A stretch of DNA of 64,000 nucleotides from Lepidurus packardi (Eukaryota > Arthropoda > Branchiopoda > Notostraca > Triopsidae): contig JAKZAN010000004.1 in the NCBI GenBank assembly GCA_023053545.1, positions 12,437,235 to 12,501,234 of the forward strand, in the 5' to 3' direction. Under the pieces are notes generated by a model. That model saw only the letters and a list, made by a program, of their open reading frames with translations, was not told the DNA's origin and searched no databases. Of the stretch, positions 600 to 23,721 are shown piece after piece (positions within the stretch are counted from its first letter, which is position 1; the number at the start of each line of letters is the position of its first letter). Made by a program: the position numbers and the translations under genes.

Positions 600-1066
600 A
601 TGCAGAGTCTGAAATCCGTGTTTTTGTTCTGTTTAATAATCAGCCCCTCGTATTGGAGGGAAACCAGTGGTACAAGTTTGCGCAAAAAACTGCTTTATGA
701 AAATTACAGAATTAATGAACAAGAATTAAGACGAGAAGGCAGATGCGAGCCCAAAATCCGCCTTTTTTATATCGGTAAGCCTAATAAGTCATGGATTTTT
801 AAAAGCTTTTCTTCGTTATAGCGGATCACCCCGGTCGAGAGCCGTACGTGGCTTACTATCCTCCGGCAACAGTACTTCACGTTTGTGATCCTACAGGTGG
901 TTGTTGCTATGAAAGTGCTCACCATCAATGCCTGCCAAGTCTAGAAGAGTCAGTTGAAGTAGTTTTTTCAGCAAAGCGACTAATACAGCGACAAACCAGC
1001 TTCCAAACCTTTACATTTACCAATCACACATCATGTACTTGCATGGATAGAAGGGAATTGGAATAA
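600..1066 (+). CDS. PDGF/VEGF-like secreted factor, copy A1
   Basis: This is a two-exon gene: exon 1 is 600-774, exon 2 is 822-1066, and the phase-1 intron is only 47 bp. The product is 139 aa. Residues 1 to about 24 form a hydrophobic signal peptide. The single cystine-knot domain starts at CEPKIRL and continues through YYPPATVLHVC, GGCC, a QC and a C-terminal HTSCTC. These match the PDGF/VEGF family order of cysteines, but the Cys of the canonical P-x-C-V motif is Thr here. That leaves seven cysteines in the mature chain. Family members are secreted dimeric ligands for receptor tyrosine kinases of the PVR/VEGFR type; binding is inferred, not shown. The start is the first ATG giving a signal peptide and matches the other copies. 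An AATAAA lies at 1125-1130. This is the most diverged A-group member. Confidence 0.85.
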
Positions 1067-1854
1067 CGTCTGATTTTTGGAGGCTAGACACAGCAACATA
1101 CATAATAATGGCAAACAGTGTGGCAATAAATGAATAATTACAAGAAAATATTCAACTTAAAGCTTCCAATGGTGTAGTATAGCAAATACGTACATAATGT
1201 TTACAGAAATTCTAAGAAGTTTTTACTAATTCTACATTTTCGCGAGGAAAATGGGAAATCATCCGTGATTATTGGGCGGTTATGGGAAAACTTGAATCTA
1301 CCATAGAACTATCGACATCGTTTTTTTAGGACAGCAAACTTCTTGGGAAAAGCGCAAGTTTCATTGTGGTTAGATATGAATGTGAGCAAATGTGTCTAAA
1401 TGGCGAACTGGGACCAGTACGATATGTTGCGCACTCTTGAAAGGTTCAATACATTTTTTATTATACTTTGTAATTCGGGAATTTTTTGCAATGTAATTTC
1501 CGAGATTCCTTGTTTTTACAACTCATTGTTGCCTGTCTCTGTTTCTTGGGGGGTTTCATCTTTATTTCATAATAACGAAGAACATTGTAAGAAATAAGAA
1601 CTACAAGCAAAACTCAAAAGCTAATGACAAGTGCTAAAATATAAATTTCTTTTTTTCGCGTCTTAAAAAATAACGCTACTTACCAAACAAGGCGTAAAGC
1701 CGGGTTCGTAGGACAGGTTCCGGGTAGCCAAAGACAATGCAGTCGCGCTAAACTCGTTGCACCGTTGTACCACTGCCAAGGCACACGGGACCATCAATGT
1801 ACAAGGCATACCGGTGAATAAAGTAAACCTACAACTATATTCATAAACTATATT
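1067..1854. other. 3' flank of copy A1, partly duplicated
   Basis: There is no gene here. The stretch holds the A1 polyadenylation signal AATAAA at 1125-1130. Its sequence recurs at about 3340-3745 behind the broken copy at 3.1 kb, so the A1 tail was duplicated together with exon 2. A few AT-rich ORFs occur but show no protein features. Confidence 0.5.
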
Positions 1855-1966
1855 CCTAAACATATATTCCTAAACTATATTCCTAAACTATATTAATACT
1901 GTTAATATGAATGTAGTTTAGGGTCCCAGTACATTGTGCTCTCGCTAGCTTTTTTTAGTCAGACAT

Positions 1967-1976
1967 TGACGTCAAC
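1967..1976 (+). promoter_or_regulatory. TTGACGTCAA palindrome (CRE-like) upstream of A2
   Basis: A GACGTC-centred palindrome lies about 210 bp upstream of the TATA box. The same element is a perfect TGACGTCA at 4730-4737 upstream of A3 and at 17508-17515 upstream of A5, and is degraded near 9270 upstream of A4. TGACGTCA is the known CREB/ATF site; binding here is inference. Confidence 0.4.
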
Positions 1977-2184
1977 TTAACTCTTTCCTTTCCTTTTTTT
2001 TCTGTCCACTAAACCGGGTTAAGAGCCAGGCTCCCTGTATGCATTATCCCAGGGACTTTTAGATCGGGGATGCCCCATATCCATGCAGGCGGATTCAGAG
2101 GAATCTTTCCCTTTTCGCAGTCCGACTGTGACGCCATGATGCTCTAGCGCCAGTTCTAACAGCAGACTTGGGGGGTTTCTTACG

Positions 2185-2192
2185 TATAAATA
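2185..2192 (+). promoter_or_regulatory. TATA box of copy A2
   Basis: TATAAATA is followed by the A2 start codon 143 bp later. The same box and spacing occur in A3 (4939-4945), A4 (9060-9066, minus) and A5 (17716-17722), inside a duplicated 5' block. This indicates that the copies were duplicated with their core promoters. Confidence 0.65.
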
Positions 2193-2334
2193 TGGCGTGA
2201 TTGCTCGACAGAACCAGCATTCAAGCGTGAACAAGCAGACCCACAGCATCACGTTTATTCCAAGCAAAGAAACGAGCAAAGTCCAACCGTAAAGCAGTAA
2301 TTTAACACCGAGTTCTATCATTCCATTCGCCAAG

Positions 2335-2912
2335 ATGCAGTCTCTGAAATGTGTGCTACTTGTGTGTCTTATTATTAGTGCCGTTTACGAACTGGAAGTG
2401 AGTGCCAGAAACGTCAACATTCTTAAAAAGGAATTGTTTGAACAATACCGATTGAACGAACAGTTACTCAGAAGAGAAGGACGATGTGAGCCCAAGATTC
2501 GTCTCTCCTATATCTGTAAGTATTACCTGGATCAGCTGTATCTTTAAGTACAGTGTATACAACGCATTACATCACAGTAGTTCTAATTATTGCATTATAA
2601 GGACAATGTGTGTTGCAATTGGCTTATAATTTTGTTACTTTTGTTTCGCTTTGAATTATAGTGGATCACCCAGACGCCGAGTCAGGAATCGAATATTTCC
2701 CTCCCGCCGCCGTTCTTCATGTGTGTGAACACTCCGGTGGTTGTTGCTATGAAAGTACTCGCCATCGATGCCAGCCTTACGAAGAACAGGAGGTCGAGGT
2801 AGTGTTTATTACCAAACGACTCGGCCATAAGCACACCGGCTTCCAAACCTTTACCTTCACCAATCATACACAATGTGCTTGCATGGACAGCTGCACCATC
2901 AAAGATCTCTAG
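2335..2912 (+). CDS. PDGF/VEGF-like secreted factor, copy A2 (altered C-terminus)
   Basis: Exons are 2335-2515 and 2662-2912, joined by a 146-bp phase-1 GT-AG intron. The product is 143 aa, with a signal peptide at about residues 1-22 and a PDGF/VEGF cystine-knot domain from CEPKIRL to HTQCACM. Where A3, A4 and A5 end in MDSGEHPR, this copy reads MDSCTIKDL. Relative to those copies about 180 bp is missing just after the last knot cysteine, so reading runs into what is 3' UTR elsewhere (the GATCTCTAG segment). The change adds an eighth cysteine to the mature chain. An AATAAA-type signal follows near 2928-2935. Function is inferred as for the other copies. Confidence 0.85.
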
Positions 2913-3102
2913 TCGTAATTCTCTAATAATAAATATTTTCTGTACCAGTCACAATGTCCCAATTTGAAAACTCGCTGAAATCTAATGTGTGAAGTGAAGA
3001 AATACTCAGGAATCGCAACTGTAAGTGAAGACGAGATGATAATTCTATCTTCTAGCGGTTGGATTTAGGACTAATCATGTGTGTGCTCAACTGTCATTTC
3101 CA

Positions 3103-3343
3103 TACTATCCTCCTGCAACAGTACGTGTGTGATCCCACAGGTGGTTGTTGCTATGAAAGTGCTCACTATCAATGCCTGCCAAGTCTAGAAGAGTCAGTTG
3201 AAGTAGTTTTTTCAGCAAAGCGACTAACAGAGCGACAAACCAGCTTCCAAACCTTTACATTTACACATCATGTACAATCACAATCATTTACAATCACACA
3301 TCATGTACTTGCATGGATAGCAGGGAATTGGGATAACGTCTGA
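3103..3343 (+). pseudogene. Broken PDGF/VEGF-like exon 2 (A1-derived fragment)
   Basis: The segment repeats A1 exon 2 from TACTATCCTCC onward (GGCC, QC and downstream residues readable), but it has no exon 1, acceptor or promoter. It is fused to 3' flank sequence of copy A2 at about 3100. It lacks five bases inside the VLHVC stretch and carries a short internal duplication just before the last cysteines. Downstream sequence to about 3745 continues as a copy of the A1 tail. It is most simply a non-functional duplication remnant. Confidence 0.75.
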
Positions 3344-4638
3344 TTTTTTAGGCTAGACATAGCAACATACATAATAACGGCAAACAATGTGGCAATAAAT
3401 GAATAATTACAAGAAAATATTCAACTTAAAACTTCCAATGGTGTAGTATAGCAAATACGTACATAATGTTTACGTTACGTAAGAATCACAGAAATTCTAA
3501 GAAGTTTTTATTAATTCTCTTTAATTCTTTAATAGTTTCTATTAATTCTGAGTTTCATCTGTGTTTCATAATAACGAAGAACATTGTAAGAAATAAGAAC
3601 TACAAGCAAAACTCAAAAGCTAATGACAAGTGCTAAAACATAAATTTCTTTTTTTCACGTCTTAAAAAAGAACGCTACTTATCAACAAGGCGTAAAGCCG
3701 GGTTCGTAGGACAGGTTCCGGGTAGCCAAAAACAATACAGTCGCGCTAAATAATTCATTCTTGTCTTCGTTCATTCACTGAACTCGTTGCGCCGTAGTAC
3801 CACTGCCAAGGCATACCGGAGAAAGACGATGCGTCCCCGCCTAAACTTACAGAGAATGTCGGTTAGTTTTTACTTTGATGTATTGTTAATCTTCGCTCGG
3901 TCCATGAGATTTCAATGGAATGGAATTAAAGTTTCTTACAGTTAAACTTGGGAAAAGTCACCTTCTTAACTCACACATAATGTGCTTGCCAGTCATCATC
4001 TTAATAATAGTCAAAGTATTTTAATAGAAGACAATGTTATACTCCATTACTAACCATATCTTAATTACTATCTAGCTTATGTGTGAAAAAAGGTTAGGGT
4101 CCGAGTACATTCTTTTCTTGCTTGCTTTTATTTTCCTTTTTTTTTTTAAAAAAAAAAAAAAAACAGACATTGATGCCATACCAAATTTGTCTGGTCCACG
4201 AATTATAATTTTTCCGGAAACTATTTTGCATTTTTCCATTCTAAAATACGAACGCGTCTGTAACAGAAATCCCCTTTAATCTTTATATATAGCCTCCTTT
4301 TTTCAGCCACTTAACGCAGTCAAAAACCAGGCTTCCTATTTATATTAATAGAGGAGCTTTTAGAACGGGGATCTCCCAAGTCCTTGGCACGCTTGAATGT
4401 TGGTTTTCTCTAGCAGTCACGCTTCATTTATACATAAAAAAAAACAAGTCCGCTATTATAACTGGTGGACGTAAGACACAAACATACAGTTTTATTACAG
4501 TTTATTTCAGTTTATTACAAAACAATGCAATGGCGCTAAATAATTCATTCTTGTCTTCGTTCATTCACTGAACTCGTGGCGCCGTTGTACCACTGCCAAG
4601 GGATAACGGACCATCAATGTACAAGGCATACCGGTGAA
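3344..4638. other. Duplicated flank with decayed promoter pieces
   Basis: There is no intact gene. From 3344 to about 3745 the sequence is a copy of the A1 3' flank. Around 4315-4465 there are decayed pieces of the A-group promoter block, one of them in inverted orientation with a TTTATAC TATA remnant. A poly-A/T run lies at 4138-4162. The stretch reads as rearrangement debris between copies A2 and A3. Confidence 0.5.
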
Positions 4639-4938
4639 TATAGTCCTAAACTATATTCATACTGTTAATATGAATGTAGTTTAGGGTCCCAGTACATTGT
4701 GCTCCCGACAGCTTTTTTTAGTCAGACATTGACGTCACCTTAACTCTTTCCTTTCCGTTTTTTTCTGTCCACTAAACGCGGTTATAAGCCAGGTTCCCTA
4801 TATCCCAGGGGATTTTAGATCGGGGATGCCCCATATCCATGCAGGCTGATTCAGAGGGATCTTTCCCTTTTCGCATTCCGACTGACGACATCATGCTCCA
4901 GCGCCAGTCCTAACGGCAGACTTGGGGGGCTTCTTACG

Positions 4939-4945
4939 TATAAAT
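4939..4945 (+). promoter_or_regulatory. TATA box of copy A3
   Basis: TATAAAT lies 150 bp before the A3 ATG in the duplicated promoter block. A perfect TGACGTCA palindrome lies further upstream at 4730-4737. Confidence 0.6.
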
Positions 4946-5088
4946 GTGGCGTGATTGCTCGACAGAACCAGCATTCAAGCGTGAACAAGCAGACCCACAG
5001 CATCACGTTTATTCCAAGCAAAGAAACGAGCAAAGTCCAACCGTAAAGCAGTAATTTAACACCGAGTTCCATCATTCCATTCGCCAAG

Positions 5089-5663
5089 ATGCAGTCTCTG
5101 AAATGTGTGCTACTTGTGTGCCTTATTATCAGTGCCGTTTACGAACTGGAAGTGAACGCCAAAAGCGTCAAAATTCTTAAAAAGGAATTGTTTGAACAAT
5201 ACCGATTGAACGAGCAGTTACTCAGAAGAGAAGGACGATGTGAGCCCAAGATTCGTCTCTCCTATATCAGTAAGTATTACCTGTATCAGCTGTATCTTAG
5301 AGTACAGTGTATACAACGCATTACATCACAGTAGTTCTAAAAATTGCATTATAAGGACAATGTGTGTTGCAATTGGCTTATAATTTTGTTATTTTTGTTT
5401 CGCTTTGAATTATAGTGGATCACCCAGACGCCGATTCAGGAATCGAATATTTCCCTCCCGCCGCCGTTCTTCATGTGTGTGAACCCTCTGGTGGTTGTTG
5501 CTATGAAAGTGCTCGCCATCAATGCCAGCCTGACTTAGAAGAGGAGATCGAGGTAGTGTTTATTACCAAACGACTCGGCCATAAACATACCGGCTTCCAA
5601 ACCTTCACCTTCACCAATCATACACATTGTGCTTGCATGGATAGCGGCGAACATCCCAGATAA
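5089..5663 (+). CDS. PDGF/VEGF-like secreted factor, copy A3
   Basis: Exons are 5089-5269 and 5416-5663, with a 146-bp phase-1 intron. The product is 142 aa: a signal peptide at about 1-22 ending near NA, a short charged linker, then the cystine-knot domain (CEPKIRL, YFPPAAVLHVC, GGCC, QC, HTHCAC) and the tail MDSGEHPR. Seven mature cysteines are present, and the canonical P-x-C cysteine is Ala. It is very close to A4 and A5. The last base of exon 1 differs from A2, so the junction residue is Met rather than Leu. The AATAAATATT signal lies about 180 bp past the stop. Role is inferred as a secreted PVR/VEGFR-type ligand. Confidence 0.87.
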
Positions 5664-6185
5664 AAAGCTAAAAGAATTCCCGCAGCTTTTCTAAAATGCT
5701 CCGCCAAAAACAACAACAACGGATATACGTGGCCTTTGAATCAAAAATGGAGAGATTCACAAACACGAAATATGAACTGACTTTAATGAATCTCCCCCTC
5801 TCTCTCTGCACCTTCAAAGATCTCTAGTCGGAATCTCTAATAATAAATATTTTCTGTACCAGTCACAATGTTCCAATTTGAAAACTCGCTGAAATCGAAT
5901 GTGTGAAGCGAAGAAATACTCAGGAATCGCAACTGTAAGTGAAGACGAGATGATAATCTTATCTTGTAGCGGTTGGATTTAGGACTAATCATGCGTGTGC
6001 TCAACTGTCATTTACATGACACTTTTGTGGAACACCAATACTGTAAACGCATTTTCTGAACATGCCCTTTGTAAAATTTGCTAATATATATGATCATTTT
6101 TGGAAAATTTAGCGTTTGTTTTTCTATATTTTCACTGCCCTGCTCAGGTCTTCTGTCTACGATGAAGGATTAAAAAAAAAGAGGT

Positions 6186-6545
6186 AACGCAAAAATCCCG
6201 ACTTGGGTCATGCCGGACTTGTAGCGTTTCTCCGGCTAAAGCCTCGAAGTTGATCAACACAGAAAAATAAGGGACCAAGTTCAGCGCGATGCCTTTTCCC
6301 GGACTTGTTGCCCTTCTTGGGCATGCCATCGTGGATAATGCCATATATTTCCCATTTTTCATTGTCAGCTTAGAAAAACCCCATAAAAGTCAAGCCGGAG
6401 TAATGGCTATAAATCCGGCCAAACCCAAGTCGGGTTTCTGCGGTCCCTTTTCAAGGGACCTTTCCGAGGAAACCTTCTGTTGGGACAGGGAACTTCCACA
6501 ACGGGTTGCAGGTCAGCTGGTTTTGGACTTAAAATCAACCGGACA
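6186..6545 (+). mobile_element. Foldback repeat element, copy 1
   Basis: This is a non-coding element built from inverted modules of about 45 bp (CCCGACTTGGGT, then GCCGGACTTGTAGCG and TTCTCCGGC). The module at 6200-6245 is matched in reverse complement at about 6390-6440, so the element can fold into a hairpin. Related copies lie at 7467-7845 (minus), 18965-19320 (plus) and 31318-31660 (minus), and a second subfamily lies at 10 kb, 12 kb and 16.5 kb. No transposase is present. It is probably a non-autonomous MITE or foldback type; target duplications were not determined. Confidence 0.6.
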
Positions 6546-6551
6546 GGATAG

Positions 6552-6559
6552 TATATAAA
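6552..6559 (+). promoter_or_regulatory. TATA box of truncated copy B1
   Basis: TATATAAA lies at the edge of the foldback element, 176 bp before the B1 ATG. B2 (about 11689-11694, minus) and B3 (about 13770-13776, minus) have related but weaker TATA sequences in the same context. Confidence 0.5.
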
Positions 6560-6734
6560 GGCTAGCCTTGGCTGTTTATCGAAAATACCCATTCGCTAAC
6601 GGGAAGTAGCACCAGCACGTCCCGTTTCTACTTTTTCCACTTTTCCCATATACCAAGTTTGTTCACGTCCATTGATTCGACTTGAATCACAGTTGAGTGC
6701 TGAGAAACGTCTCTATTTCCGTAGCAAATATAGA

Positions 6735-6941
6735 ATGGAGCTGAAATGCGCGCTTTTAATTTGCATTGCGATCAGTGCGGCAAATCTGTTGGTGGTTAAC
6801 GCCACTAATGGAAACGATCAACAGGCGACAAAAGAACAACAGGAGAAGTTCAAGCTAAACGTGCAGCTTCTGAAAAGAGAAGGCAATTGTGAGCCTAAAA
6901 TTAGACTGTCCACTTACAAGAGCCAAAGACTGACATACTAA
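6735..6941 (+). pseudogene. Truncated PDGF/VEGF-like gene, copy B1 (exon 1 only)
   Basis: The ATG at 6735 opens the same exon 1 as B2 and B3: a signal peptide beginning MELKCALLICI, a linker, and the first knot cysteine in NCEPKIRL. The splice donor that follows in B2 and B3 is replaced here and the frame runs to a stop at 6941. No exon 2 is found in the next several hundred bases. A 68-aa secreted peptide could be made, but it would lack the cystine knot. Upstream in-frame codons back to 6672 lack an ATG. It sits between the two arms of an inverted duplication. Confidence 0.75.
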
Positions 6942-7466
6942 TTCGCATTATGTGTTATATAATGTCTTTATTAACTCTTTGATATTTACATTTACCATGA
7001 AACAATATGAATGAATAAAATACTTGATCGTGTTGTCAAAAAAGATTCAAATACACTTTATAAACGACACAAGTTGTTAATTGACACATTTGGGGTGAAG
7101 AATTGCTTACAAAACTTGAAGACTGTATACGTTTACTTGTAGTTCGCATTTTTATGTAGGCCTATACTTCTAGTTCAAAGATAGTATACATTGACTTGTA
7201 GACGTCAAGGGTCCGGATGATGAGCAAACGCGTCAAATGACCACGGCCGATTTGAAATCGTCAGATCCGGTTGTGATACCTATCACCTCTCGTCACCGGG
7301 AAGATGCAGTCACCGACCATGGTGAGACAGATTACATCCTCATTGTCAAACGGTGGAAAGGCAAGGAGTCGAAACTGGAAGCGTACGCCAAGAAAGGCTT
7401 TGGCAAGGAACAAGTTAAGTGGAATCCCACCCATGGTGAGACAACAGAAATTGGTGACACTAGGTC
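6942..7466 (+). other. Spacer between inverted arms with a protein-like open frame
   Basis: The first half is AT-rich and featureless. From about 7193 to 7500 one frame stays open and looks like protein (for example [20 protein letters not shown]), with a higher GC content than its surroundings. There is no start context, splice signal or homologue I recognise. It may be a captured exon fragment, or it may be chance. Confidence 0.35.
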
Positions 7467-7845
7467 CAAGGTTTGCTGTCCTAAGTCCAAAACCAGCTGA
7501 ACTACAACCCGTTGTGGAAGTTCCCTCTCCCAAAAGAAGGTTTCCTAGGAAAGGTCCCTTTAAAAGGGACCGCAGAAACCCGACTTGGGTTAGCCCGGAT
7601 TTATAGCCATTACTCCGGCTTGACTTTTGTGGGGGTTTTCTAAGCTGACAATGAAAAATGGGAAAGTTATGGCATTATACACGATGGCATGCCCAAGAAG
7701 GGCAACAAGTCCGGGCAAAGGCATCGCGCTGAACTTGGTCCCTTATTTTTCTGTTTTGATCAACTTCGAGGCTTTAGCCGGAGAAACGCTACAAGTCCGG
7801 CATGACCCAAGTCGGGATTTCTTGCGTTACCTCTTTTTTTAATCC
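7467..7845 (-). mobile_element. Foldback repeat element, copy 2
   Basis: This is the reverse complement of copy 1 at 6186-6545, with the same paired GCCGGACTTGTAGCG modules. It forms the inner end of the right arm of inverted duplication 1. Confidence 0.6.
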
Positions 7846-8350
7846 TTCATCGTAGACAGAAGACCTGAGCAGAGCAGTGAAAATATAGGAAAACAAACGC
7901 GAAATTTTCCAAAAATGATCATATATATTAGCAAATTTTACAAAGGTCATGTTCAGAAAATGTGTTTACAGTATTGGTGTTCCAACAAAAGCTTTATGGA
8001 AACGACAGTTAAGCACACACATGATTAGTCCTAAATCCAACCGCTACAAGATAAGATTATCATCTCGTCGTCACTTACAGTTGAGATTCCTGAGTATTTC
8101 TTCACTTCACACATTCGATTTCAGCGAGTTTTCAAATTGGGACATTGTGACTGGTACAGAAAATATGTATTATTAGAGAATTCCGACTAGAGATCTTTGA
8201 AGGTGCAGAGAGAGAGGGGAGATTCATTAAAGTCAGGTCGTATTTCGTCTTTGTGAATCCCTCAATTTTTGATTCAAAGGCCACGTATATCCGTTGTTAT
8301 TGTTTTTGGCGGAGTATTTTTAAAAAAGCTGCGGGAATTCTTTTGGCTCT

Positions 8351-8916
8351 TTATCTGGGATGTTCGCCGCTGTCCATGCAAGCACATTGGGTATGATTGG
8401 TGAACGTGAAGGTTTGGAAGCCGGTGTGTTTATGGCCGAGTCGTTTGGTAATAAACACTACCTCGATCTCCTCTTCTAAGTCAGGCTGGCATTGATGGCG
8501 AGCACTTTCATAGCAACAACCACCAGAGGGTTCACACACATGAAGAACGGCGGCGGGAGGGAAATATTCGATTCCTGAATCGGCGTCTGGGTGATCCACT
8601 ATAATTCAAAGCGAAACAAAAATAACAAAATTATAAGCCAATTGCAACACACATTGTCCTTATAATGCAATTTATAGATCTACTGTGATGTAGTGCGTTG
8701 TATACACTGTACTCAAAGATACAGCTGATATAGGTAATACTTACAGATATAGGAGAGACGAATCTTGGGCTCACATCGTCCTTCTCTTCTGAGTAACTGT
8801 GCGTTCAATCGGACGTGTTCATTCAATTCCTTTCTAAGACTTCTGGCGTTCACTTCCAGTTCGTAAACGGCACTAATAATAAGACACACAAGTAGCACAC
8901 ATTTCAGAGACTGCAT
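8351..8916 (-). CDS. PDGF/VEGF-like secreted factor, copy A4
   Basis: On the minus strand, exon 1 is 8916-8745 and exon 2 is 8598-8351, with a 146-bp phase-1 intron. The product is 139 aa. It has the same signal peptide as A3 and A5, but a shorter and different linker (ARSLRKELNEHVRLNAQ), then the conserved knot domain (CEPKIRL, YFPPAAVLHVC, GGCC, QC, HTQCAC) and the tail MDSGEHPR. Differences from A3 and A5 concentrate in the linker between signal peptide and knot. The minus-strand TATAAAT is at 9060-9066. It is head-to-head with neither neighbour; it faces A3 tail-to-tail across the B1 spacer. Confidence 0.87.
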
Positions 8917-10149
8917 CTTGGCGAATGGAATGATGGAACTCGGTGTTGAATTACTGCTTTACGGTTGGACTTTGCTCGTTTCTTTGCTTGGAATAAGCGT
9001 GATGCTGTGGGTCTGCTTGTTCACGCTTGAATGCTGGTTCTGTCGAGCAATCACGCCACATTTATACGTAAGAAACCCACCAAGTCTGCCGTTAGAACTG
9101 GCGCTAGAGCATGATGACGTCGCAGTAGGAATGCGAAAAGGGAAAGATCCCTCTGAATCAGCCTGCACGGACATGGGGCATCCCCGATCTAAAAGCCCCT
9201 GGGATATAGGGAACCCGGCTTTTAACCGCGTTTAGTGGACAGAAGAAACAGGAAAGAAAAGAGTTTAGGTGACGCACATTTAATATTAGAATAATACATT
9301 GTGTTATTATTGAAATAAGCGTTTGTTAATAAGGTGATGGACTGGCAAGCACACTATGTGTAAGTGGTGAAGGAAACTTCTGTCAATGTTTACGTCTTAG
9401 GCATACTAATTCCATCTGGCTCCGTTTGTCTTGGTTAATGGATTGCTTTTAGCATTTGTCGAAACAGAATAACTTCCTACATGGAAAACCGGACCCAATA
9501 TGTTCTAAATTCCTTAACGTCATGAGAGCGTCAATGGTACCGCGATACATGACAGGGATATGGGGATACGTATACAGTGCGTTCATTGGTTGCAACGCGT
9601 TGTTGCCACCTTGGCTTTTTAGTCAATGCACTGGTCAGTTCATCCTGCCCGAGGTTAGAGTGAAAGGAGATGGGTTTTCAGTAGGATCAAGGCTCTGACG
9701 TCACAGATGTATTTTCCCTAAAAATTGAATCTGTTACTGAACTACGAATTGAAGTATTGAGCTTGCATTGCCTGTCAAGCTTTCCTTAAGGTATTCGTGC
9801 GTGAATTGTTGTCTCTTTGCAATTCCGTATCTTGTCCAAGCCACGTCTAGACCTCCAGGAGTAGACAGTGGACAAGAATGAGTAGTATCACAGTTTCCGG
9901 TTGCCCCGTTTGAAGCTGTGAAGGAATGTTTAAACGAGTTTAGGTAGTCCATACACGAAGCGTAGTGCGTTAAGGGTCGTTGCTGTACTTCCTTTCTAGA
10001 AGCTCAAACTGAGCTTTGCTTGCTACCAGTGAACTCGGTACGTTCCTTTTTTCTTAAGGAATAAACCGTACTGCTGGCATAATTCTACAACACATTCATC
10101 ATACAAATGGTCCATAGTTAATTATGACATTCAGTAGATGCCACCAAAA

Positions 10150-10370
10150 AGAAAATAGATGCCACCAAAAAATGGTAACCCAGCAAACGAGGGTCAGGCC
10201 GGACTGGTAGCGTTACTTCGGCCTGCTTCAAAGTTGCGCGACAATGAAATATTATGGACCGAGCGAAGCGAGTGGAACGTTGTGGACAAGAGTGAATTAT
10301 TTAGTGCGATTGTTTGGTTTTTTCCTAGCCCGGACTTGTACCACGAACCCGGCTGGTCTTGTTTAAAAAT
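10150..10370 (+). mobile_element. Foldback repeat, subfamily 2, copy 1
   Basis: The module GGTCAGGCCGGACTGGTAGC followed by a TTCGGCCTGC half is related to the GCCGGACTTGTAGCG module of the main family. An inverted partner (TAGCCCGGACTTGTACC) lies near 10327. Copies recur at 11895-12130 (plus) and 16385-16560 (minus). It is non-coding. Confidence 0.5.
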
Positions 10371-10780
10371 ATATATTAACATTTGAACACTTCTAATTAG
10401 ATTTTAAGTTGTGTTTACCATTCTTATTTCTCAAACGTTCTTCTTTATTATAAAACAAGGACGAAACTCTTCAAAAAGCAGAAACAGCCGACAATAAGTC
10501 CCCTTTCTTGGTAAAACATCTTTGGTAAAGCAATCTCTGAATATACATTGCAAAATGTCACGAATTAGAAACTAATAAATAATGTATTGAACAGTCCTTA
10601 GATAGTGCACAAGATATAGGACTACATCATAGTTCGCATTGAAAGATTGGTTTGATTGATCGTATATTACATGAAACATTGCAGTTGGCTATTCAGCTTA
10701 ACTTCCTGTTGTATCACATTTCTAAGCTGATTTCTTCAACGACTGGGTCTAGAACCCTATAAGTACCTACTATTTAGATA

Positions 10781-11512
10781 TCAATGCAACCTGATGTCCA
10801 TGCAAGCACATTGGGTGTGATTGGTAAAGGTGAACACTTGGAAGGCTGGTCTCTTTCCTGGTCGATTTGCGTTAAACACGACATCCACTGTCTCTTCCTC
10901 GGAAGGCTTGCAGTTATATAGATTACTTCCGTAGCAGCAACTACCGGTTGATTCGCACAAGTGAAGCACAGCTGCGGGAGGAAAGTACACGATGTCCGGC
11001 TGTGCATCAGGATGATCTGCTATGTAAAAGAAACAATAAAGTATTAATATTCATGAAATATTAATAAAATAGTACGAAACGAAATCTTAATAGTTCGTAT
11101 TGATACCAGCTATTTTACTATCAAAGCTGTTTGGGTTGGCTTTGGAAAGCTGTGGAATGTAGTGTAAGATGAGATGAAGGGAAGCTGTTTTCACAGTTTA
11201 TTTTTTTTTAATTAAAAAGATTAGAAACAAATATGCCACCACGCACTAAAACGGTGTTCTGGTTACGGCTAAAATTAAACCAAAGCTTTAGTTCTAAGAT
11301 CTGCATATAGATTACACCCTTTACTTACATATATATGCTAGACGAATTTTAGGCTCACATTTGCCTTCTCTTCGCAGAAGTTGCTCGTTTAGCAGGTACT
11401 TTTCGTATTGTTTTTTTCTCGTGTGTCGATCGTTTCCATTAGTGGTGTTAACCACCAACAGATTTGCCGCACTGATCGCAATGCAAATTAAAAGCGCGCA
11501 TTTCTGCTCCAT
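10781..11512 (-). CDS. PDGF/VEGF-like secreted factor, copy B2
   Basis: Exon 1 is 11512-11329 and exon 2 is 11019-10781 on the minus strand, with a 309-bp phase-1 intron. The product is 140 aa. The signal peptide (about residues 1-23, ISAANLLVVN) differs from the A group. The knot domain reads CEPKIRL, YFPPAAVLHLC, TGSCC, NC, HTQCAC, giving seven mature cysteines, with Ala in place of the P-x-C cysteine. Upstream in-frame codons lack an ATG, so the start is the first Met. Identity to B3 is high in exon 1 and lower in exon 2, where residues between GSCC and HTQC diverge (YGSNLYNCKP versus YESVRHECKP). Confidence 0.85.
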
Positions 11513-11750
11513 TCTATATTTGCTACGGAAATAGAGACGTTTCTCAGCACTCAACTGTGATTCAATTCGAATCAATGGACGCGAACGAACTTGGTATATG
11601 GGAAAAGGGGAACAAGTAGAAACGAGACCTGCTGGTGGTACTTCTCGTTAGCGAATGGGTATCCTCGGTAACAGCCAAGGCTAACCTCTATATAATATCC
11701 TGTCCGCGTACGCGTATATGATTCATCCATGAAAAAAGTCCCCAGTTCGG

Positions 11751-13832
11751 TACGTTCCTTCCTAGAAGCTCAAACTGGGCTTGGCTTGCTTCCGGTGAAA
11801 TCCGTACGTTCCTTTTTTCTTAAGGAATAAACCTTACTGCTGGCATAATTCTACAACACATTCATCATACAAATGGTCCATACTTAATTATGACATTCAG
11901 TAGATGCCACCAAAGAAAAATAGATGCCACTGAAAAATGGTAACCCAGCAAACTTGGGTCAGGCCGGACTGGTAGCTTTACTTCGGCCTGCTTCGAAGTT
12001 GCGCGACAATGAAATGGACCGAGCGAAGCGAGTGGAACGTTGTGGACAAGAGTGAATTATTTAGTGCGATTACATGGTTTTTTCCTAGCCCGGACTTGTA
12101 CCACAAACCCGGCTGGTCTTGTTCGATGAGTAGCTTTATTTTTTAAGGCGTGAAAAAAAATATATTAACATTTGAACACTTCTAATTAGATTTTAAGTTG
12201 TGTTTACCATTCTTATTTCTCAAACGTTCTTTTTATTATAAAACAAGGACGAAACTCTTCAAAAAGCAGAAACAGCCGACAGTAAGTCCCCTTTCATAGT
12301 AAAAACATCTTTGGTAAAGTAATCTCGGAATATACATTGCAAAATGTCACGAATTAGAAACTAAGAAATAATGTATTGAACAGTCCTTAGATTGTGCACA
12401 AGATATACGACTATTTCACAGTTCGCATTGAAATATTGATTTGATTGATCGCATATTAGATGAAACATTGCAATTGCCTTTTCAACTTAACTTCCTGTTG
12501 TACCACATTTCTAAGTTGATTTCTTCAACGACTGGGTCCAGAACGCTATAAGTACATACTATATAGAACAGTTGCTCTTGAACTACGTTTCCATTTTAGC
12601 ACTGGGAGCAGGTACAAAATAAATGCATAGCAAAACAAACAGCAAAATGCGACTAGAGATTTTTTTACCGATATCAGACCGTTTCAGATTATATTAACAT
12701 GCATGTACGATAGATGGCGTTGCTTGTAGTGAGCTTGGGACGGAGCCTGTTTTGGCGAGAAGTCTTTTAGCTGAGGAGAAGTCATTAAGTCGATTACTGA
12801 AGAAGTGAGCTTCTTTTCACATAAACGCTTTCGGTTAGGTTTATCTTGGGAGCTCGCTAAATGTCCATGCAAGCACATTTGGTGTGATTGGTAAAGGTGA
12901 AGGCTATGTAGAATGCTCTCTTTCCTACTGGCTGTTCCTGAAACACAACCTCGACTGTCTCTTCCTCGGAAGGCTTGCATTCATGTCGAACGCTTTCGTA
13001 GCAGCAACTACTGGTTGATTCGCACAAGTGAAGCACAGCTGCGGGAGGAGAGTACAAGAGGTGCGGCTGTGCATCAGGATGATCCGCTATGTAAAAGAAA
13101 CAATAAAGTATTAATATTCATGAAATATTAACAAAATATTACAAAACGAAATCTTAATAGTTCGTATTGATACCAGCTATTTGACTGTCAAAGCTGTTTG
13201 GGTTTGCTTTGGAAAGTTGTGGGAATGTAATGTAAGATGAGAAGAAGGGAAAGATCTCGACACAGCTGCTTTCCATGATTATTTTTTTTAATTAAAAAGA
13301 TTAAAAACAAATATGCCACCACGCACTAAAACGGCGTTCTGGTTACAGCTAAAATTAAACCAAAGCTTTAGTTCTAAGATCTGCATATAGATTACACCCT
13401 TTACTTACATATATAAGCTAGACGAATTTTAGGCTCACATTTGCCTTCTCTTCGCAGAAGTTGCTCGTTTAGCAGGTACTTTTCGTATTGTTTTTTTCTC
13501 GCCTGTTGATCGTTTCCATTAGTGGAGTTAACCACCAACAGATTTGCCGCACTGATCGCAATGCAAATTAAAAGCGCGCATTTCAGCTCCATTCTATATT
13601 TGCTACGGAAATAGAGACGTTTCTCAGCACTCAACTGTGATTCAAGTCGAATCAATGGACGTGAACCAACTTGGTATATGGGAAAAGTGGAACAAGTAGA
13701 AACGAGACGTGCTGGTGCTACTTCTCGTTAGCGAATGGGTATTCTCGATAAACAGCCAAGGCTAGCCTTTCTATACTATCCTGTCCGGTTACACGTACAT
13801 CATTCCATCCATGAAAAAAGTCCCCAGTTCGG
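11751..13832 (-). repeat. Direct tandem duplication, unit 2 (carries B3)
   Basis: This is the second copy of the unit at 9990-11750. It is longer by about 0.3 kb, mainly extra sequence near 12560-12850 at the 3' side of the gene. It includes the subfamily-2 foldback repeat at 11895-12130. Confidence 0.65.
12857..13592 (-). CDS. PDGF/VEGF-like secreted factor, copy B3
   Basis: Exon 1 is 13592-13409 and exon 2 is 13086-12857 on the minus strand, with a 322-bp phase-1 intron. The product is 137 aa: the B-type signal peptide, CEPKIRL, YSPPAAVLHLC, TSSCC, EC and HTKCAC, ending at MDI. Seven mature cysteines are present. GGCC of the A group is SSCC here, so the glycine pair typical of the family is lost while the cysteines remain. 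It is a tandem duplicate of B2. Confidence 0.85.
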
Positions 13833-14279
13833 GAGTGATTCAGGTTTGCCAACTTAGCGGGGAATACCGGTCATCTTTGTAGGTTCATTCAGCGGGTTTC
13901 AAGGATATACAAGTATAGATGCCATTAACCGGTATTCCAACTTCAACGGTGTCCGAAGCTGGCACTTGCACGGACACAATGCCTTTGCTGTCAGACACAA
14001 GACCAAGTGAAAGTACAAGGGGGAAGTACTTAAACCGAGGAGTGCTAAACAGACAAACCGGAAGTTTAAACATTCAGGTTTAAACATTAATAAGTTTAAA
14101 CATTCAGGTTTTATTTCTATAGCAGGACTTGGTGGAACTTTTAAATTGTCCCCTTATTCTTTAGTTCTTATACCCTAAACCATGTAAATACTCAATAGTA
14201 AATGTACATGTACATGTAAATGTACAGTTATATTTGTAAAGATTGCATGTCCTTTTTTAACAGTGTATGATACTTGGAG

Positions 14280-14467
14280 CTATAAAACAGTGATATCTTG
14301 GGTTTACATTTGCCGTTCCTTTGCAAGAGTTTAAAAACTCTTGGGTTTCTTTAAAACTCTTTCTTTAGTATTCTCAGAACGTTGGAGCTTTGGGTGGCAG
14401 GTAACAGAAAATGACACAAATTGACAATAAGACAGACTAATAGCGCAGATCTTGGACACAACTGCAT
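14280..14467 (-). pseudogene. Decayed PDGF/VEGF-like exon 1
   Basis: Read from an ATG at 14467 on the minus strand, it begins MQLCPRSALLVCLIV, runs through a hydrophobic signal-like stretch and VLRILKKEF, then hits a stop. In a shifted frame it resumes as LLQRNGKCKPKISLFY, which aligns with LLRREGRCEPKIRLSY of the live copies. No GTAAGT donor follows and no exon 2 was found downstream. It is an eleventh, dead member of the array. Confidence 0.65.
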
Positions 14468-16384: not shown

Positions 16385-17715
16385 AGAATCTGAGCTTCAC
16401 GACATCCCCGCCAGAAAGTCAAGCGGGGACCGCTTTTTTTTATATTTTATTAATATTTCATTGTCGCGCAACTTCGAAGCAGGCCGAAGTAACGCTACAA
16501 GTCCGGCTTGACCCTCGTTTGCTGGGTTACCATTTTTTGGTGGCATCTATTTTTTCTTTGGTGACATCTACTGAATGTCATAAATAACTATGGACCATTT
16601 GAATGATGAATGAGTTGTAGAATTATGCCAGCAGTACGGTTTATTCTTTAAGAAATAAGGAACGTACCGAGTTCACTGGAAGCAAAGCCAAGCCCAGTTT
16701 GAGCTTCTAGAAAGGAAGTACAGCAACGACCCTTAACGCACTACGCTTCGTGCATGGACTACCTAAACTCGTTTAAACATTCCTTCACAGCTTCAAACGG
16801 GGTAACCGGAAACTGTGATACTACTCACTCTTGCGACACCACTGTCTACTCCTGGAGGTCTAGACGTGGCTTGGACAAGATACGGAATTGCAAAGAGACA
16901 ACAATTCACGCACGAATACCTTAAGGAAAGCTTGACAGGCAATGCAAGCTCAATACTTCAATTCGTAGTTCCGTAACAGATTCAATTTTTAGGGAAAATA
17001 CATCTGTGACGTCAGAGCCTTGATCCTACTGAAAACCTTCTCCTTTCACTCTAACCTTGTGCAGGATGAACTGACCAGAATATTGACTAAAAAGCCATGT
17101 TTGCAACAACGCGTTGCAACCAATGAACGCACTGTATACGTATCCCCATATCCCTGTCATGTATCGCGGTACCATTGACGCTCCCATGACGTTAAGGAAT
17201 TTAGGACATATTGTGTCCGGTTTTCCACGTAGGAAGTTATTCCGTTTCGACAAATACTAAAAGCAATCCATTAACCAAGACAAACGGAGCCAGATGGAAT
17301 TAGTATGCCTAAGACGTAAACATGGACAGTAGTTTCCTTCACCACTTACACACAATGTGCTTGCCAGTCATCACCTTACTACTAAAAGCTTTTTTCAATA
17401 ATAATACAATGCATTTACTCTAGTATTAAATAATGATACTATGAATATGAATGTAGTTTAGGGTCCCAGTACATTGTGCTCTTGCTAGCTTTTTTTAGTC
17501 AGACATTGACGTCACCTTAACTTTTACCTTTCCTTTTTTTCTGTCCACTAAACGCGGTTAAAAGCCAGGTTCCCTATATCCCAGGGGCTTTTAGATCGGG
17601 GATGCCCCATGTCCATGCAGGCTGATTCAGAGGGATCTTTCCCTTTTCGCATTCCGACTGTGACGCCATGGTGCTCTAGCGCCAGTTCTAACGGCAGACT
17701 TGGTGGTTTCTTACG

Positions 17716-17722
17716 TATAAAT
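17716..17722 (+). promoter_or_regulatory. TATA box of copy A5
   Basis: TATAAAT lies 150 bp before the A5 start codon. A perfect TGACGTCA lies upstream at 17508-17515. Confidence 0.6.
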
Positions 17723-17865
17723 GTGGCATGACTGCTCGACAGAACCAGCATTCAAGCGTGAACAAGCAGACCCACAGCATCACGTTTATTCCAAGCAAAG
17801 AAGCGAGCAAAGTCCAACCGTAAAGCAGTAATTCAACACCGAGTTCCATCATTCCATTCGCCAAG

Positions 17866-18440
17866 ATGCAGTCTCTGAAATGTGTGCTACTTGTGTGCCT
17901 TATTATTAGTGCCGTTTACGAACTGGAAGTGAACGCCAAAAGCGTCAAAATTCTTAAAAAGGAATTGTTTGAACAATACCGATTGAACGAACAGTTACTC
18001 AGAAGAGAAGGACGATGTGAGCCCAAGATTCGTCTCTCCTATATCTGTAAGTATTGCCTATATCAGCTGTATCTTTGAGTACAGTGTATACAACGCATTA
18101 CATCACAGTAGTCCGAAAAATTGCATTACAAGGACAATGTGTGTTGCAATTGGCTTATAATTTTGTTACTTTTGTTTCGCTTTGAATTATAGTGGATCAC
18201 CCAGACGCCGATTCAGGAATCGAATATTTCCCTCCCGCCGCCGTTCTTCATGTGTGTGAACCCTCTGGTGGTTGTTGCTATGAAAGTGCTCGCCATCAGT
18301 GTCAGCCTGACGAGGAAGAGAAGGTCGAGATCGTGTTTATTACCAAACGACTCGGCCATAAACACACCGGCTTCCAAACCTTCACCTTCACCAATCATAC
18401 ACAATGTGCTTGCATGGACAGCGGCGAACATCCCAGATAA
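17866..18440 (+). CDS. PDGF/VEGF-like secreted factor, copy A5
   Basis: Exons are 17866-18046 and 18193-18440, with a 146-bp phase-1 intron. The product is 142 aa, nearly the same as A3: signal peptide, linker AKSVKILKKELFEQYRLNEQ, the knot domain (CEPKIRL, YFPPAAVLHVC, GGCC, QC, HTQCAC) and the tail MDSGEHPR. It differs in the acidic loop (DEEEKVEIVF versus DLEEEIEVVF in A3). Polyadenylation signals of the AATAAATATT type lie near 18620. It is inferred to be a secreted PVR/VEGFR-type ligand. Confidence 0.87.
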
Positions 18441-18964
18441 AGAGCCAAAAGAATTCCCGCAGCTTTTTCAAAATACTCCGCCAAAAACAGCAACAACGGA
18501 TATACGTGGCCTTTGAATCAAAAATTGAGAGATTCGCAAAGACGAAATATGAACTGACTTTAATGAATCTCCCCCTCTCTCTCTGCACCTTCAAAGATCT
18601 CTAGTCGGAATTCTCTAATAATAAATATTTTCTGTACCAGTCACAATGTCCCAATTTGAAAACTCGCTGAAATCTAATGTGTGAAGTGAAGAAATACTCA
18701 GGAATCGCAACTGTAAGTGAAGCCGAGATGATAATCTTATCTTGTAGCGGTTGGATTTAGGACTAATCATGTGTGTGCTCAACTGTCATTTCCATGACAC
18801 TTTTGTTGGAACACCAATACTGTAAACGCATTTTCTGAACATGACCTTTGTAAAATTTGCTAATATATATGATCATTTTTGGAAAATTTCGCGTTTGTTT
18901 TTCTATATTTTCACTGCCCTGCTCAGGTCTTCTGTCTACGATGAAGGATTAAAAAAAAGAGGTA

Positions 18965-19320
18965 ACGCAAGAAATCCCGACTTGGGTCATGCCGGACTTG
19001 TAGCGTTTCTCCGGCTAAAGCCTCGAAGTTGATCAACACAGAAAAATTATGGACCGAGTTCAACGCGTGGCCTTTGGCCGGACTTGTAGCCGCTTCTTCG
19101 GCCTGCCGAATGCCTGATGCCATTTTCCCTTGTCAAGTAAGAAACATCCACGAGAGTAAAGCCGCATTAATCGCAACAAGTCCGGCCTAACCAAAGCCGG
19201 TTTTCCGCGTTCCCTTTCTTGGGGTCCTCGTCGATAAAAATTTTTGGGAGCAGAGACTTCGACAACGGGTTATTGTAGGACAACTGATTTTGGATCATGG
19301 AATACCTGACAATCTTTCGA
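18965..19320 (+). mobile_element. Foldback repeat element, copy 3
   Basis: The 5' half (CCCGACTTGGGTCATGCCGG) matches copy 1 closely. The inner half is diverged (GGCCGGACTTGTAGCCGCTT, then CAAGTCCGGCCTAACC in inverted sense). It ends the inverted arm carrying A5. Confidence 0.55.
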
Positions 19321-22150
19321 AAACATGAATGAACATTTGAAGTGTTAACTACATTTAAAGCGCATTCATTTAATTCTTTATTTTCCGAATCCTCCACGAA
19401 ATCCATATAAGGAGCGTAAGAACAAGAATTGGACTTGACGACATGCACAACAAAGGAAATCTATCTAGGCTTCCTGTTTTCTCAGATCTTGAATGCGGAA
19501 ACTTCGGCCCTCTTACTTCACTTCATTAACACGGTTACTCCATACAAATTTTCCCGTGCTTATGTGGAGCACGTCTTCGTACGTGTCTTCACTTCCCTGG
19601 TTTATGTTAGAAAGCGCAGAATATTATTGCAATATTGCTCTCACCATGATGTCATGTATATTAAAATACGGAAATTTTCTTCCCAGAAGATCGATTGCTC
19701 CAACGCTGTATACTAAGTATACCACTTTGCCCATTAGGGGGTTGCATTCCAACTTTCTAGCACCTTCCATCGAAGTAGTTATCGTTCCCTTTCCTAAGAC
19801 CTGGCAATCACCCGGAAGTTTTCTTTTCCAATTGATCTTGCGAAACGCCTCATATCGATCGTATCGATATATAAACGCCTCATCGATATATAGATCGATC
19901 TTCTCGGTTGCTACTCGCCGCGTGCTATGGCGTCTTTTTCTCCACTTTCAATGACATAATTTCTTTCAATAAAATCTTTCAATGACAAATGACATAATTT
20001 CTCCAATTTATAGCTAGTTTGCTCGGTAAAACTGTGGCGTCATAAACTGCCCCAAAGTATGCAATTAAAAAAGAAAGGTTAAAGATCAAATGTGTAAATG
20101 TACTTGTATCGTTTGTTATTAAGCTATTCTAATTTGTACTACAGCAGCAGTATTTAATCATTGCTTATTATTAAATTATAATGTACTATTAAACAGAAAT
20201 AGGGTTATCCTTTAGGGAACAGTGCTGCCACCGCAACTTTCTACCTATAACTGTTCAGTGTTAGCTTCTTCCAATATAAAAAATGGGACACAATTTAAAT
20301 TAATAAAGAAATGAAAGGATCACCTTGTAACCATTCCTTAGCTTCAGTTTTATTGCGAAAAAAATGGGAAAAGAACTTGCGTCAACCAATTGTCGTAGGA
20401 AAACCTAAACTGCGCCGGAAGAACGATCCCAATATGCATTGCGTCCTTCAGCCGTGCGAAATTGCACCATTCCTTGACGTCGTTCTATTCTTAACCCTGT
20501 TCAGCCAATCCTGGAGCCCTAAGTTTTCGTTTTTTTCTTTCTTTTTTCTTTCTTTCATTGCAACCATCTTTGGTAATACGGAAAAAACGGGAATTGGTTG
20601 TGTTAAACCTCGGAAGCTGACCTGTGAAATCTACAAAAAATTCCCAGATACTTTGACGTACGTTCACTAACGCACCAAAACCCCCCTTATTAAATACACG
20701 GTATTTTGCTACCTGGTAAAAGAAACAAAACTGGTCAAACCGGTAAATTGAATCCATAATTCTTGAAGAATCACTAATAGACCACACAAAGAACAAGTTT
20801 TTAGGGATTCCATCCATCATAAGTAATTAAGCTGTCAAAGAAAGAAATTTCCATTTCCAGAAAAATTGGAAGACGTAAGAAAAAACATTCTTGTTTTTTC
20901 TTTATGATTTTATACAAATAAATTAGTGAGAATATATATAAATTATAGTTATTAAGGCTCCCGGATACCTTCTTTTGCAAAAGAATAACAAACATCAGCG
21001 CCATCTATGACTGACCTTAGAAAAAACTCCTGCGGAGGACCATGCTAAGACAGAATTCTCGCTAACCACTTTATTAGAAGTGTTTGGTTATATTATCCTC
21101 GCAAAAGGGCCACAGGATAAACCTGGAACTCAGGGGATGAACATTTGAATCTCGCGCGTCAGCTCAACAGACAGGCGAAGATCTAAACACATAATCTTTG
21201 CGAAGAACTTGCACGCGATTCACAAGGCAGTTAACTTTACAACATCAGGCATTGAGCTAGACAAAGTTTCTAGGCGAACTAGACCAACTATCTATTGTCA
21301 GTTGCTAGGAAACTCATGCTATCTAATCTATCTAATCTCTATAAAAATCTAATGCTAGTTAGACGCAGAAATGCTTCATTACTTCCGTTGAAAAAGTCGA
21401 GCCATTCTCTTGTTTAACTTATTTAACTTATTATAATCCTAGCCAGTTTGACTATGTGTTGTCTTGTACCCGGTAACGAGCCATTCTCCTATTCCATGAA
21501 CTTAGCTTTTTATAATCCTGGCCGGTTTCACTATCTGTTGTCTTGTACCTGGTAAGCTAACGCAAATACACAAAGAATGTATTACGAGGAAAACATTTAG
21601 GGAGTTAAAACCCCCCAACTGGGTACAAGTGGAGTATAAGCCCCGAACATGGTCTCAACATTCGTTTTTTTATGAATATTGGACTATTTTTGGCTCTTTC
21701 TAAGGTACTTCTAAGTACTTCTAAGGTACTTCTAAGTACTTCTAAGGTACTTCTAAGTACTTCTAAGGTACTTCTAAGGTACTTCTAAGGTACTTCTAAG
21801 TACTTCTAAGGTACTTCTAAGTACTTCTAATGTACTTCTAAGTACTTCTAAGTACTTCTAAGGTACTTCTAAGGTACTTCTAAGGTACTTCTAAGGTACT
21901 TCTAAGTACTTCTAAGGTACTTCTAAGTACTTCTAAGTACTTCTAAGGTACTTCTAAGTACTTCTAAGGTACTTCTAAGGTACTTCTACGTACTTCTAAG
22001 GTACTAAAGTACATTTGAGAGTCCCGAACGCTGCAATGTGAAAATTAGGACCAAAAGCCAGGTAAGTACCGGATTGTGTCTGCGGCTAGCGGGGATTTTT
22101 CCTTCGTCAATTGACGCACAAGGTATCTGTGCTCGCAATACTCGACTAGC
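19321..22150. other. Gene-poor gap with a minisatellite
   Basis: I see no supported gene. Two longer open frames (19493-19954 and 20311-20670, plus strand) lack family features, splice sites or a TATA box. CGATCGATAT-type palindromes occur at 19858-19905. A segment of about 85 bp is duplicated at 21405-21550 (CTATGTGTTGTCTTGTACC versus CTATCTGTTGTCTTGTACC). Confidence 0.45.
21706..22010 (+). repeat. AAGGTACTTCT minisatellite
   Basis: About 300 bp consist of 10-11-bp units, alternating AAGGTACTTCT with the shorter AAGTACTTCT in irregular order. GTAC is palindromic, so both strands look similar. It lies about 290 bp upstream of gene C1. Confidence 0.9.
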
Positions 22151-22160
22151 TACAGAATCA

Positions 22161-22167
22161 TATAAAA
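22161..22167 (+). promoter_or_regulatory. TATA box of gene C1
   Basis: TATAAAA lies 141 bp before the C1 start codon, a spacing like that of the A-group genes (143-150 bp). Confidence 0.5.
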
Positions 22168-22301
22168 CTAGCCTGACTACTACCGAGCTTTGTCATTCAA
22201 GCGCTTAAACAAGCACACAACGCTTGTATTGTAACATTTGTAAACCAAAAGCCGGCAAAAGTCTCTCAAAGTCGTAGAATTGTCGCGATAAAGCTGAGAA
22301 A

Positions 22302-23721
22302 ATGTGGCAAGTGAAATCCGTGATCCTTATTGGCTGTGTTATCAGTGCTGTGTATTGGCCGGAGGCGAACGCACAAAAGCGTCCCGTTCTCAACAAAGAA
22401 CAACACGCTAATTTTAAAACGAACGACAAAGTCCTACGACTAGAAGGAAAATGTGAACCGAAGATTCGCCTTTCTTATATCTGTAAGTCCATAACGAGTG
22501 AGATTTCACAAGGATTTTAAACGGAGCCCTAAAGCGAAACTAAAAAGAAAAAAATGCGTTACAACGTAATTTGTCTGTTTTTTTACTCAGCGTATCCTTT
22601 GGCTCGCTGTCAATTTTCTTCAAAGTTCCACGAAAAACGAGATTTGAGATTAAACATAAACGAGATTTGAGCGCGGTAGAAGCTTCTTCGGGTTTTTACC
22701 ACTCAAGTTTGAAACTCCCGTGCTAATCTTCTCGCTATACCAGTTGCACCACTGGGTAAACCGGCGTCAAGGATCTTTCAGCGCTCTGTGGCGTTCAATT
22801 CTGGACTTGAACCTCTAAGGTTTGAAAGAAAGAAAGAAGGAAAATAACAAAATAAACAAGTAGCCCAGCCCTTTGGAACGGTCATTATAGCACACTGCGT
22901 CCTTGGACAGTCCAAGCTAAAAGTTACAAAGCTAACTCATGGAAAGCACTCTGTCATATCTTGCTCTTAGAGCTAGTAACAAGGGATACTATCTGAGACC
23001 AAACAATAAAACCGGGTTTCTCTTCCTGCCTTTTTTTAAGGTTAAAAAATCACATTGTTAGGCTAACAATACTAACTACAATAGATGCAAACGTAAGCAC
23101 AATTTGGTTCTCTTGTTCTCTCGCATATTCTGTTACATTCCTTTTCCCTAATTACAAAAGGTAAGGGAAATACAACAGACCTTTTTATGCTGATTCACGA
23201 TTCAACCATTCTTATTATATAACTCTTATAGTAGTAAATAGTATGCAAAGTAAGGGTTCCATTCTGTGAAATACGTGGACTAAGAAACTTATATTAAAAC
23301 AAAATATATATAAATTGTTTTCACAATATACGACAAAGGGTATTCTTGTTGTCGAGGAATCTTTTCCGGATGTTGAAAGGCTAAGCAAAACAAAAACAAA
23401 CATCAGTGCCATCTATCATTGTCTCGCATCGATAAGCTACAGTACGCGGGATGCCTTAAGGATGTACTAAACGTTTGTGTGCTATTTTTCTTTACAGCGG
23501 ATCATGAAGATGCAGAGCCAGATGTTGATTACTTTCCCCCTGCTGCAGTGCTTCACGTGTGCCATTCTACAGGTGGTTGTTGCGAAAATGTTCGTCATCG
23601 ATGCGAACCGCACACAATGGAGCAGGTCAAGATCGTATTCTCAGCCAAACGACTTGGACATCGCAAACCCGTCTATAAAAGCTTCACCTTCACCAATCAC
23701 ACGCAATGTGCTTGTTGGTAA
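22302..23721 (+). CDS. PDGF/VEGF-like secreted factor, gene C1
   Basis: Exons are 22302-22482 and 23498-23721. The intron keeps phase 1 but is 1015 bp long. The product is 134 aa with a signal peptide at about 1-23 (ending EANA), then CEPKIRL, YFPPAAVLHVC, GGCC, RC and HTQCACW as the C-terminus. One residue is missing after GGCC compared with the other copies (CCENVRH versus CCYESARH). It ends directly after the last cysteine, without the basic or acidic tail. It is the most diverged intact member and the right-hand end of the array. The intron contains a tRNA-like remnant near 22690-22780. Confidence 0.85.

Follow-up and report, generated by a model that had tools for sequence, protein, structure and literature searches.

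An array of eight short PDGF/VEGF-type genes in Lepidurus packardi that probably encode secreted PVF ligands

The window analysed here is a stretch of 64,000 nucleotides from Lepidurus packardi (assembly GCA_023053545.1, contig JAKZAN010000004.1; C3:12437235-12501234 in the contig labels used below, which refer to a scanned genome of 108.6 Mb in 344 contigs), and its span 600-23721 contains eight intact two-exon genes of the PDGF/VEGF type together with three relics. A preliminary description, made from the letters alone, had proposed eight genes of 134-143 amino acids, each with a single phase-1 intron, and three broken copies; rebuilding the models gave the same coordinates and counts, with GT-AG splice sites and a phase-1 intron in all eight (donor and acceptor strings are listed for six of the eight copies). 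On the plus strand lie copy A (600..1066; exons 600-774 and 822-1066; 139 amino acids), copy B (2335..2912; exons 2335-2515 and 2662-2912; 143 amino acids), copy C (5089..5663; exons 5089-5269 and 5416-5663; 142 amino acids), copy H (17866..18440; exons 17866-18046 and 18193-18440; 142 amino acids) and copy I (22302..23721; exons 22302-22482 and 23498-23721; 134 amino acids), while the minus strand carries copy E (8351..8916; exons 8745-8916 and 8351-8598; 139 amino acids), copy F (10781..11512; exons 11329-11512 and 10781-11019; 140 amino acids) and copy G (12857..13592; exons 13409-13592 and 12857-13086; 137 amino acids). The intron measures 47 nucleotides in copy A, 146 in four copies, 309 and 322 in two others and 1015 in copy I. 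The relics are an exon-2 fragment resembling copy A, lacking exon 1 and disrupted at its end (relic 1, ~3122..3280, plus strand), an F/G-type exon 1 that has a promoter-like upstream part but neither a usable donor nor an exon 2 (relic 2, 6735..6911, plus strand), and a degenerate exon 1 containing one stop (relic 3, ~14282..14452, minus strand).

The assignment to the PDGF/VEGF family, also proposed in the preliminary description, was supported by a Pfam profile check, in which seven of the eight products passed the PF00341 cut-off of 27 bits (27.3-31.8 bits) and copy G scored slightly below it (25.4 bits, E 1.8e-5). Relatives found among solved structures agree: a profile of the eight copies, run against 177635 distinct sequences of the PDB with a threshold of E 10, returned 13 matches, 11 of them VEGF, PlGF or PDGF entries headed by VEGF-F (1.4e-4) and PlGF (1.5e-4), and the two matches outside the family had E values of 0.61 and 0.78. 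The closest relatives of solved structure are thus snake VEGF-F, PlGF and VEGF-C. The six knot cysteines are invariant and in order in every copy, and in the family numbering C1, C3, C4, C5, C6, C7 and C8 are kept throughout. An N-H-T sequon stands immediately ahead of the last two cysteines in all eight products. Past the last knot cysteine each product continues for just 1-9 residues, and the cysteine-rich BR3P tail of the VEGF-C/D type is absent. All eight also begin with a hydrophobic stretch, whose best mean of 2.55-3.32 over 11 residues is a measure of hydropathy rather than a signal-peptide prediction. Judged by their sequences, the array products are members of the PDGF/VEGF family of an already known type. 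Chance open reading frames were considered and ruled out by the profile scores and the common splice structure. A protein collection that we suspect to be poor in animal sequences returned no match at 0.001 for copy H (1 candidate) or for the eight-row profile (2409 candidates), and nothing is inferred from this result.

Together with the array, the genome holds at least 14 loci with a PDGF domain (genome searches score the best candidates only), since six further loci exceed the Pfam cut-off, one on contig C6, one at C3:11.07 Mb and four on contig C1; the Pfam domain is what all of these share with the array. The loci on C6 and at C3:11.07 Mb, the latter covering model positions 1-47 only, in one frame, retain both inter-subunit cysteines, C2 and C4, as well as a C-x2-CC spacing and cysteine-rich frames downstream, all read from genomic frames rather than exon models. 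The array differs from both in lacking C2 and a cysteine-rich tail and in having five residues instead of two between C3 and the CC pair, and its knot ring is therefore larger by three residues. The second group, on contig C1 (4174135-4175751, 4209789-4209983 and 7543760-7543984; L010, L011 and L012), comprises four loci, two of which (4174135-4174353 and 4175524-4175751) lie ~1.2 kb apart. The motif at these loci is C[DE]G[PS]C, with neither C2 nor C4; two contain a stop within the matched stretch, which at the 4175566 locus lies at an apparent intron end. In two of them a likely donor, placed by eye, is of phase 0 and lies ~18 residues past the first cysteine, compared with phase 1 after 10 residues in the array. 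A second query recovered the same four loci, and a fifth place that it returned (E 0.07) is doubtful.

The pattern of inter-subunit cysteines invites an alternative reading, according to which the array products no longer activate PVR receptors in the ordinary way and act instead as antagonists, as decoys, or as partners joined to canonical PVFs (PDGF/VEGF-related factors) through an odd inter-subunit cysteine. In all eight products C2 is alanine and C4 is retained, so that the two-cysteine hallmark of vertebrate members is absent; seven of the eight mature products have seven cysteines, and copy B has eight, with one additional cysteine after the knot. These features would suit such a role, as would the retention of both cysteines at the canonical loci on C6 and at C3:11.07 Mb. 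However, the available text of PMC10328876 gives missing inter-subunit bonds as the rule in protostomes and states that dimers can form without them. The loss of C2 therefore does not mark a new kind of protein, and we regard an antagonist or partner role as unlikely.

Exon searches of the whole genome, in which the best candidates were scored, show how local the expansion is. With exon 2 as the query, the nine places found at E 0.01 all lie in the array (the eight genes and relic 1), and with exon 1, ten of the eleven places found at E 1 do so (the eight genes and relics 2 and 3), the only match outside being a weak one on contig C1 (E 0.63). The gene models and these searches agree with the earlier proposal of a dense local expansion of intact copies. 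Twenty families of direct repeats, one of them a short tandem repeat, link the copies and their flanks, most of the gene-linked ones at 69-100% identity, and among 25 listed inverted pairs 24 show 90-99% complementarity and one 74%. Several of the inverted pairs connect the regions at ~9.1-10.3 kb and 16.45-17.7 kb, including a duplicated non-coding arm at 9340..9677 whose partner lies at 17032-17369 (94%). Copies B, C, E and H are 92-98% identical across exons, introns and flanks alike. To judge from these repeats, the copies arose through local direct and inverted duplication. In a tree of the eight proteins, one of the five inner branches is supported, that of F and G, and copy I has the longest branch.

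The duplicated units include promoters. In B, the promoter and 5' untranslated region form a block of 170 bases (2165..2334, plus strand) with the box TATAAAT at -150, and C, E and H carry the same block at 95-98% identity; a genome search at E 0.001 found no fifth copy of it. A TATA box ahead of most copies had been noted in the preliminary description, and this holds: the strict motif TATA[AT]A[AT] is present in five of the eight, at -150 in B, C, E and H and as TATAAAA at -141 in I, whereas F and G have the looser TATATAG/TATAGAA at -182/-183 and copy A, without a good box, has just TATATGG at -145. A tandem repeat with a period of ~10-11 bases (21677-22046) lies upstream of the copy I promoter.

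Other duplicated material lies between and beside the genes. A partial copy of the gene for the RNA polymerase II subunit RPB3 (7219..7449, plus strand) is in frame, with 75% amino acid identity and no stops in the matched stretch; a frame of 226 amino acids from the neighbouring RPB3 gene, supported by Pfam domains, lies just left of the window and forms the left flank of the array, while a frame with FAD-binding domains (Pfam) forms the right flank. Relic 2 and the RPB3 fragment are flanked by a 339-nucleotide inverted pair (6193-6531 and 7482-7820, 96%), of which diverged copies occur at ~18972-19294 and ~31320-31605. Short pieces of this element recur on contigs C1 to C5 (27 matches), which suggests that a small dispersed repeat may lie within it. 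Rfam at gathering thresholds gave no match in the window. Elsewhere on the same contig, the region C3:420943-2792385 is rich in cuticle-protein domains (PF00379). The search for this domain gave at least 150 matches, the best 150 of 266 candidates having been scored, and these matches mark the genome as that of an arthropod.

Selection was assessed from the ratio of replacement to silent rates (dN/dS) across four old lineages, A, B/C/E/H, F/G and I, and within the young groups. Among the 21 between-lineage pairs, dN is 0.27-0.40; dS is at least 1.38 in 12 pairs, giving dN/dS of 0.08-0.28, and saturated in the other nine. In a crude neutral simulation with substitutions only (2000 runs), a stop-free frame with seven cysteines survived in 5.1% of runs at 9% change and in 0.2% at 25% change. 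Because dN/dS is low and intact frames are rare in neutral runs, we conclude that selection kept the old lineages, and these are under purifying selection. The seven young pairs are more varied. The six ratios within B/C/E/H run from 0.22 (C/H) to 0.85 (B/E), and F/G stands at 1.37. The replacement rate is below the silent rate for C/H (p 0.005) and C/E (p 0.033), while E/H (p 0.095), the three B pairs (p 0.12-0.68, the highest for B/E) and F/G (p 0.55) do not differ from equality, all p values being uncorrected for the seven pairs. The youngest copies are accordingly either constrained or indistinguishable from neutral. A dN/dS test across the copies, suggested in the preliminary description, thus upholds constraint for the old lineages and leaves pairs such as B/E and F/G no different from 1.

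These results bear on the possibility that only some copies are functional (for example A, I, one of C/E/H and one of F/G, or a smaller set) and that the rest are recent duplicates drifting towards the loss already seen in the relics. Three relics stand beside the eight intact genes, the comparisons of B with C, E and H (0.53-0.85) and of F with G give ratios not significantly different from 1, and the similarity of B, C, E and H extends evenly from exons into introns and flanks, all of which would be expected of such drift. Against it, the frames, cysteines and sequon are intact in A, F/G, B/C/E/H and I despite a silent distance of at least 1.38 or saturation, which argues that at least four lineages have been kept, and the C/H and C/E pairs are constrained. 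We consider partial function a serious possibility, albeit one with less than an even chance of being right; for the copies that are kept, it is compatible with the ligand role proposed below.

The F/G pair also provides the main argument for another alternative, in which the VEGF fold serves a secreted effector (a reproductive, egg-coat or gland product) outside growth-factor signalling. Exon 2 of this pair has changed fast, with changes at 29 of ~178 replacement sites compared with 14 at 307 intron sites (p 2e-5). Yet its silent sites are elevated too (5 of ~47) and the 3' flank is just 73% identical, so patchy conversion explains the pair equally well. Moreover, the genome has receptor loci that would serve the classical role (see below), and we consider an effector role very unlikely. 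Positive selection on F/G is not claimed, since the excess of exon-2 replacements over the intron rate is accompanied by elevated change at silent sites and in the 3' flank.

A query with the kinase of human VEGFR2 identified five PVR-like loci, all with E 5.4e-18 or better and with identities of 49-61%. Two of them lie near C6:7.60 Mb and two near C6:7.18 Mb (within C6:7592109-7602828 and C6:7175936-7183644; L018-L021), and one is on contig C5 (C5:5642810-5644068; L022). Three additional matches were weaker, and one of these, L023, reads as FGF-receptor-like. The catalytic loop of L021, used as a query in turn, gave 17 matches, in which the same five loci come at 79-100% (one being L021 itself) before a drop to at most 64%. 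For L022, the only piece compared with the PDB, VEGFR2 was the best match, with PDGFR and KIT close behind. L021 bears the motif HGDLA, which the available text of PMC11024359 describes as a motif of crustacean PVRs; the same text lists 61 transcript sequences for PVRs in two species of branchiopods, a figure that is not a gene count. The arrangement in two adjacent pairs suggests that receptors were duplicated alongside ligands.

The closest relatives of solved structure, PlGF, VEGF-F and VEGF-C, have a cysteine where the array has alanine at C2 and lack the three additional residues before GCC; PlGF and VEGF-F are likewise short by chain length. In PDGF-C/D, three extra residues lie between the third and fourth cysteines and a CUB domain is present. 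The insertion resembles that of the array, whereas a CUB domain is not among the Pfam matches of the array products. PDGF-C is also, in the text available from PMC10328876, the single vertebrate exception to the eight-cysteine pattern. With arthropod PVFs and crustacean VEGFs the array shares the PDGF/VEGF domain with its six knot cysteines, and incomplete inter-subunit cysteines are frequent in protostomes (PMC10328876, in part). The preliminary description had stated that arthropods usually carry few PVF genes; this agrees with the numbers given in the portions available of PMC13185635 (Drosophila with three Pvfs and a single Pvr) and PMC11024359 (L. vannamei with five VEGFs and two VEGFRs), in contrast to eight genes within 23 kb here. 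The array would also be set apart from arthropod PVFs by its tail of 1-9 residues, its five-residue gap between C3 and CC and its NHT sequon in all eight products. No arthropod PVF array is described in the literature searched, as judged by titles and the openings of abstracts in partial listings. Apart from its unusual size, the array appears to be an ordinary expansion of a signalling family that is already known.

The sequence shows the PDGF/VEGF domain, the knot cysteines, the exons with their intact frames, the local duplication, the constraint on the old lineages and the five receptor-kinase loci. On this basis the best explanation, which we hold with fair confidence, is that the copies are a source of several secreted PVF ligands for PVR-like receptors, with expression divided among them. 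We propose that local duplication has produced a set of PVF-type ligand genes, in which (i) each product would be exported by means of its N-terminal signal; (ii) it would fold as a cystine-knot monomer and may be N-glycosylated near the last knot strand; (iii) the products would pair into dimers; and (iv) these would bind one or more receptor tyrosine kinases of the PVR type encoded elsewhere in the genome. The copies probably differ in the time, place and amount of their expression.

By analogy with shrimp and Drosophila PVFs, the role would most likely be in blood-cell, growth or immune signalling. Crustacean and fly PVFs have been linked to immunity and growth, to the formation of blood cells and to the use of lipids (PMC13252836, PMC13185635 and PMC11024359, as far as their available texts go), and a crab PDGF/VEGF-related protein is reported to drop in the hemolymph after yeast infection (PMC8047416, in part). 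In the available part of PMC13322756, a PDGF/VEGF-related gene of Daphnia pulex stays up-regulated in juveniles treated with predator cues, and roles outside immunity are therefore possible. More speculatively, ligands and receptors may have expanded together in this lineage, and the array products, each with an unpaired inter-subunit cysteine, may combine into mixed dimers, either among themselves or with canonical PVFs, as a combinatorial code for blood-cell or growth signalling, although we would give this only a small chance. L. packardi, whose genome has at least 14 loci with a PDGF domain as well as five PVR-like kinase loci, offers a chance to test the division of work among duplicated growth factors, and the array could show how a short VEGF domain signals when one inter-subunit cysteine is missing, be it as a homodimer, as a mixed dimer or as an antagonist.
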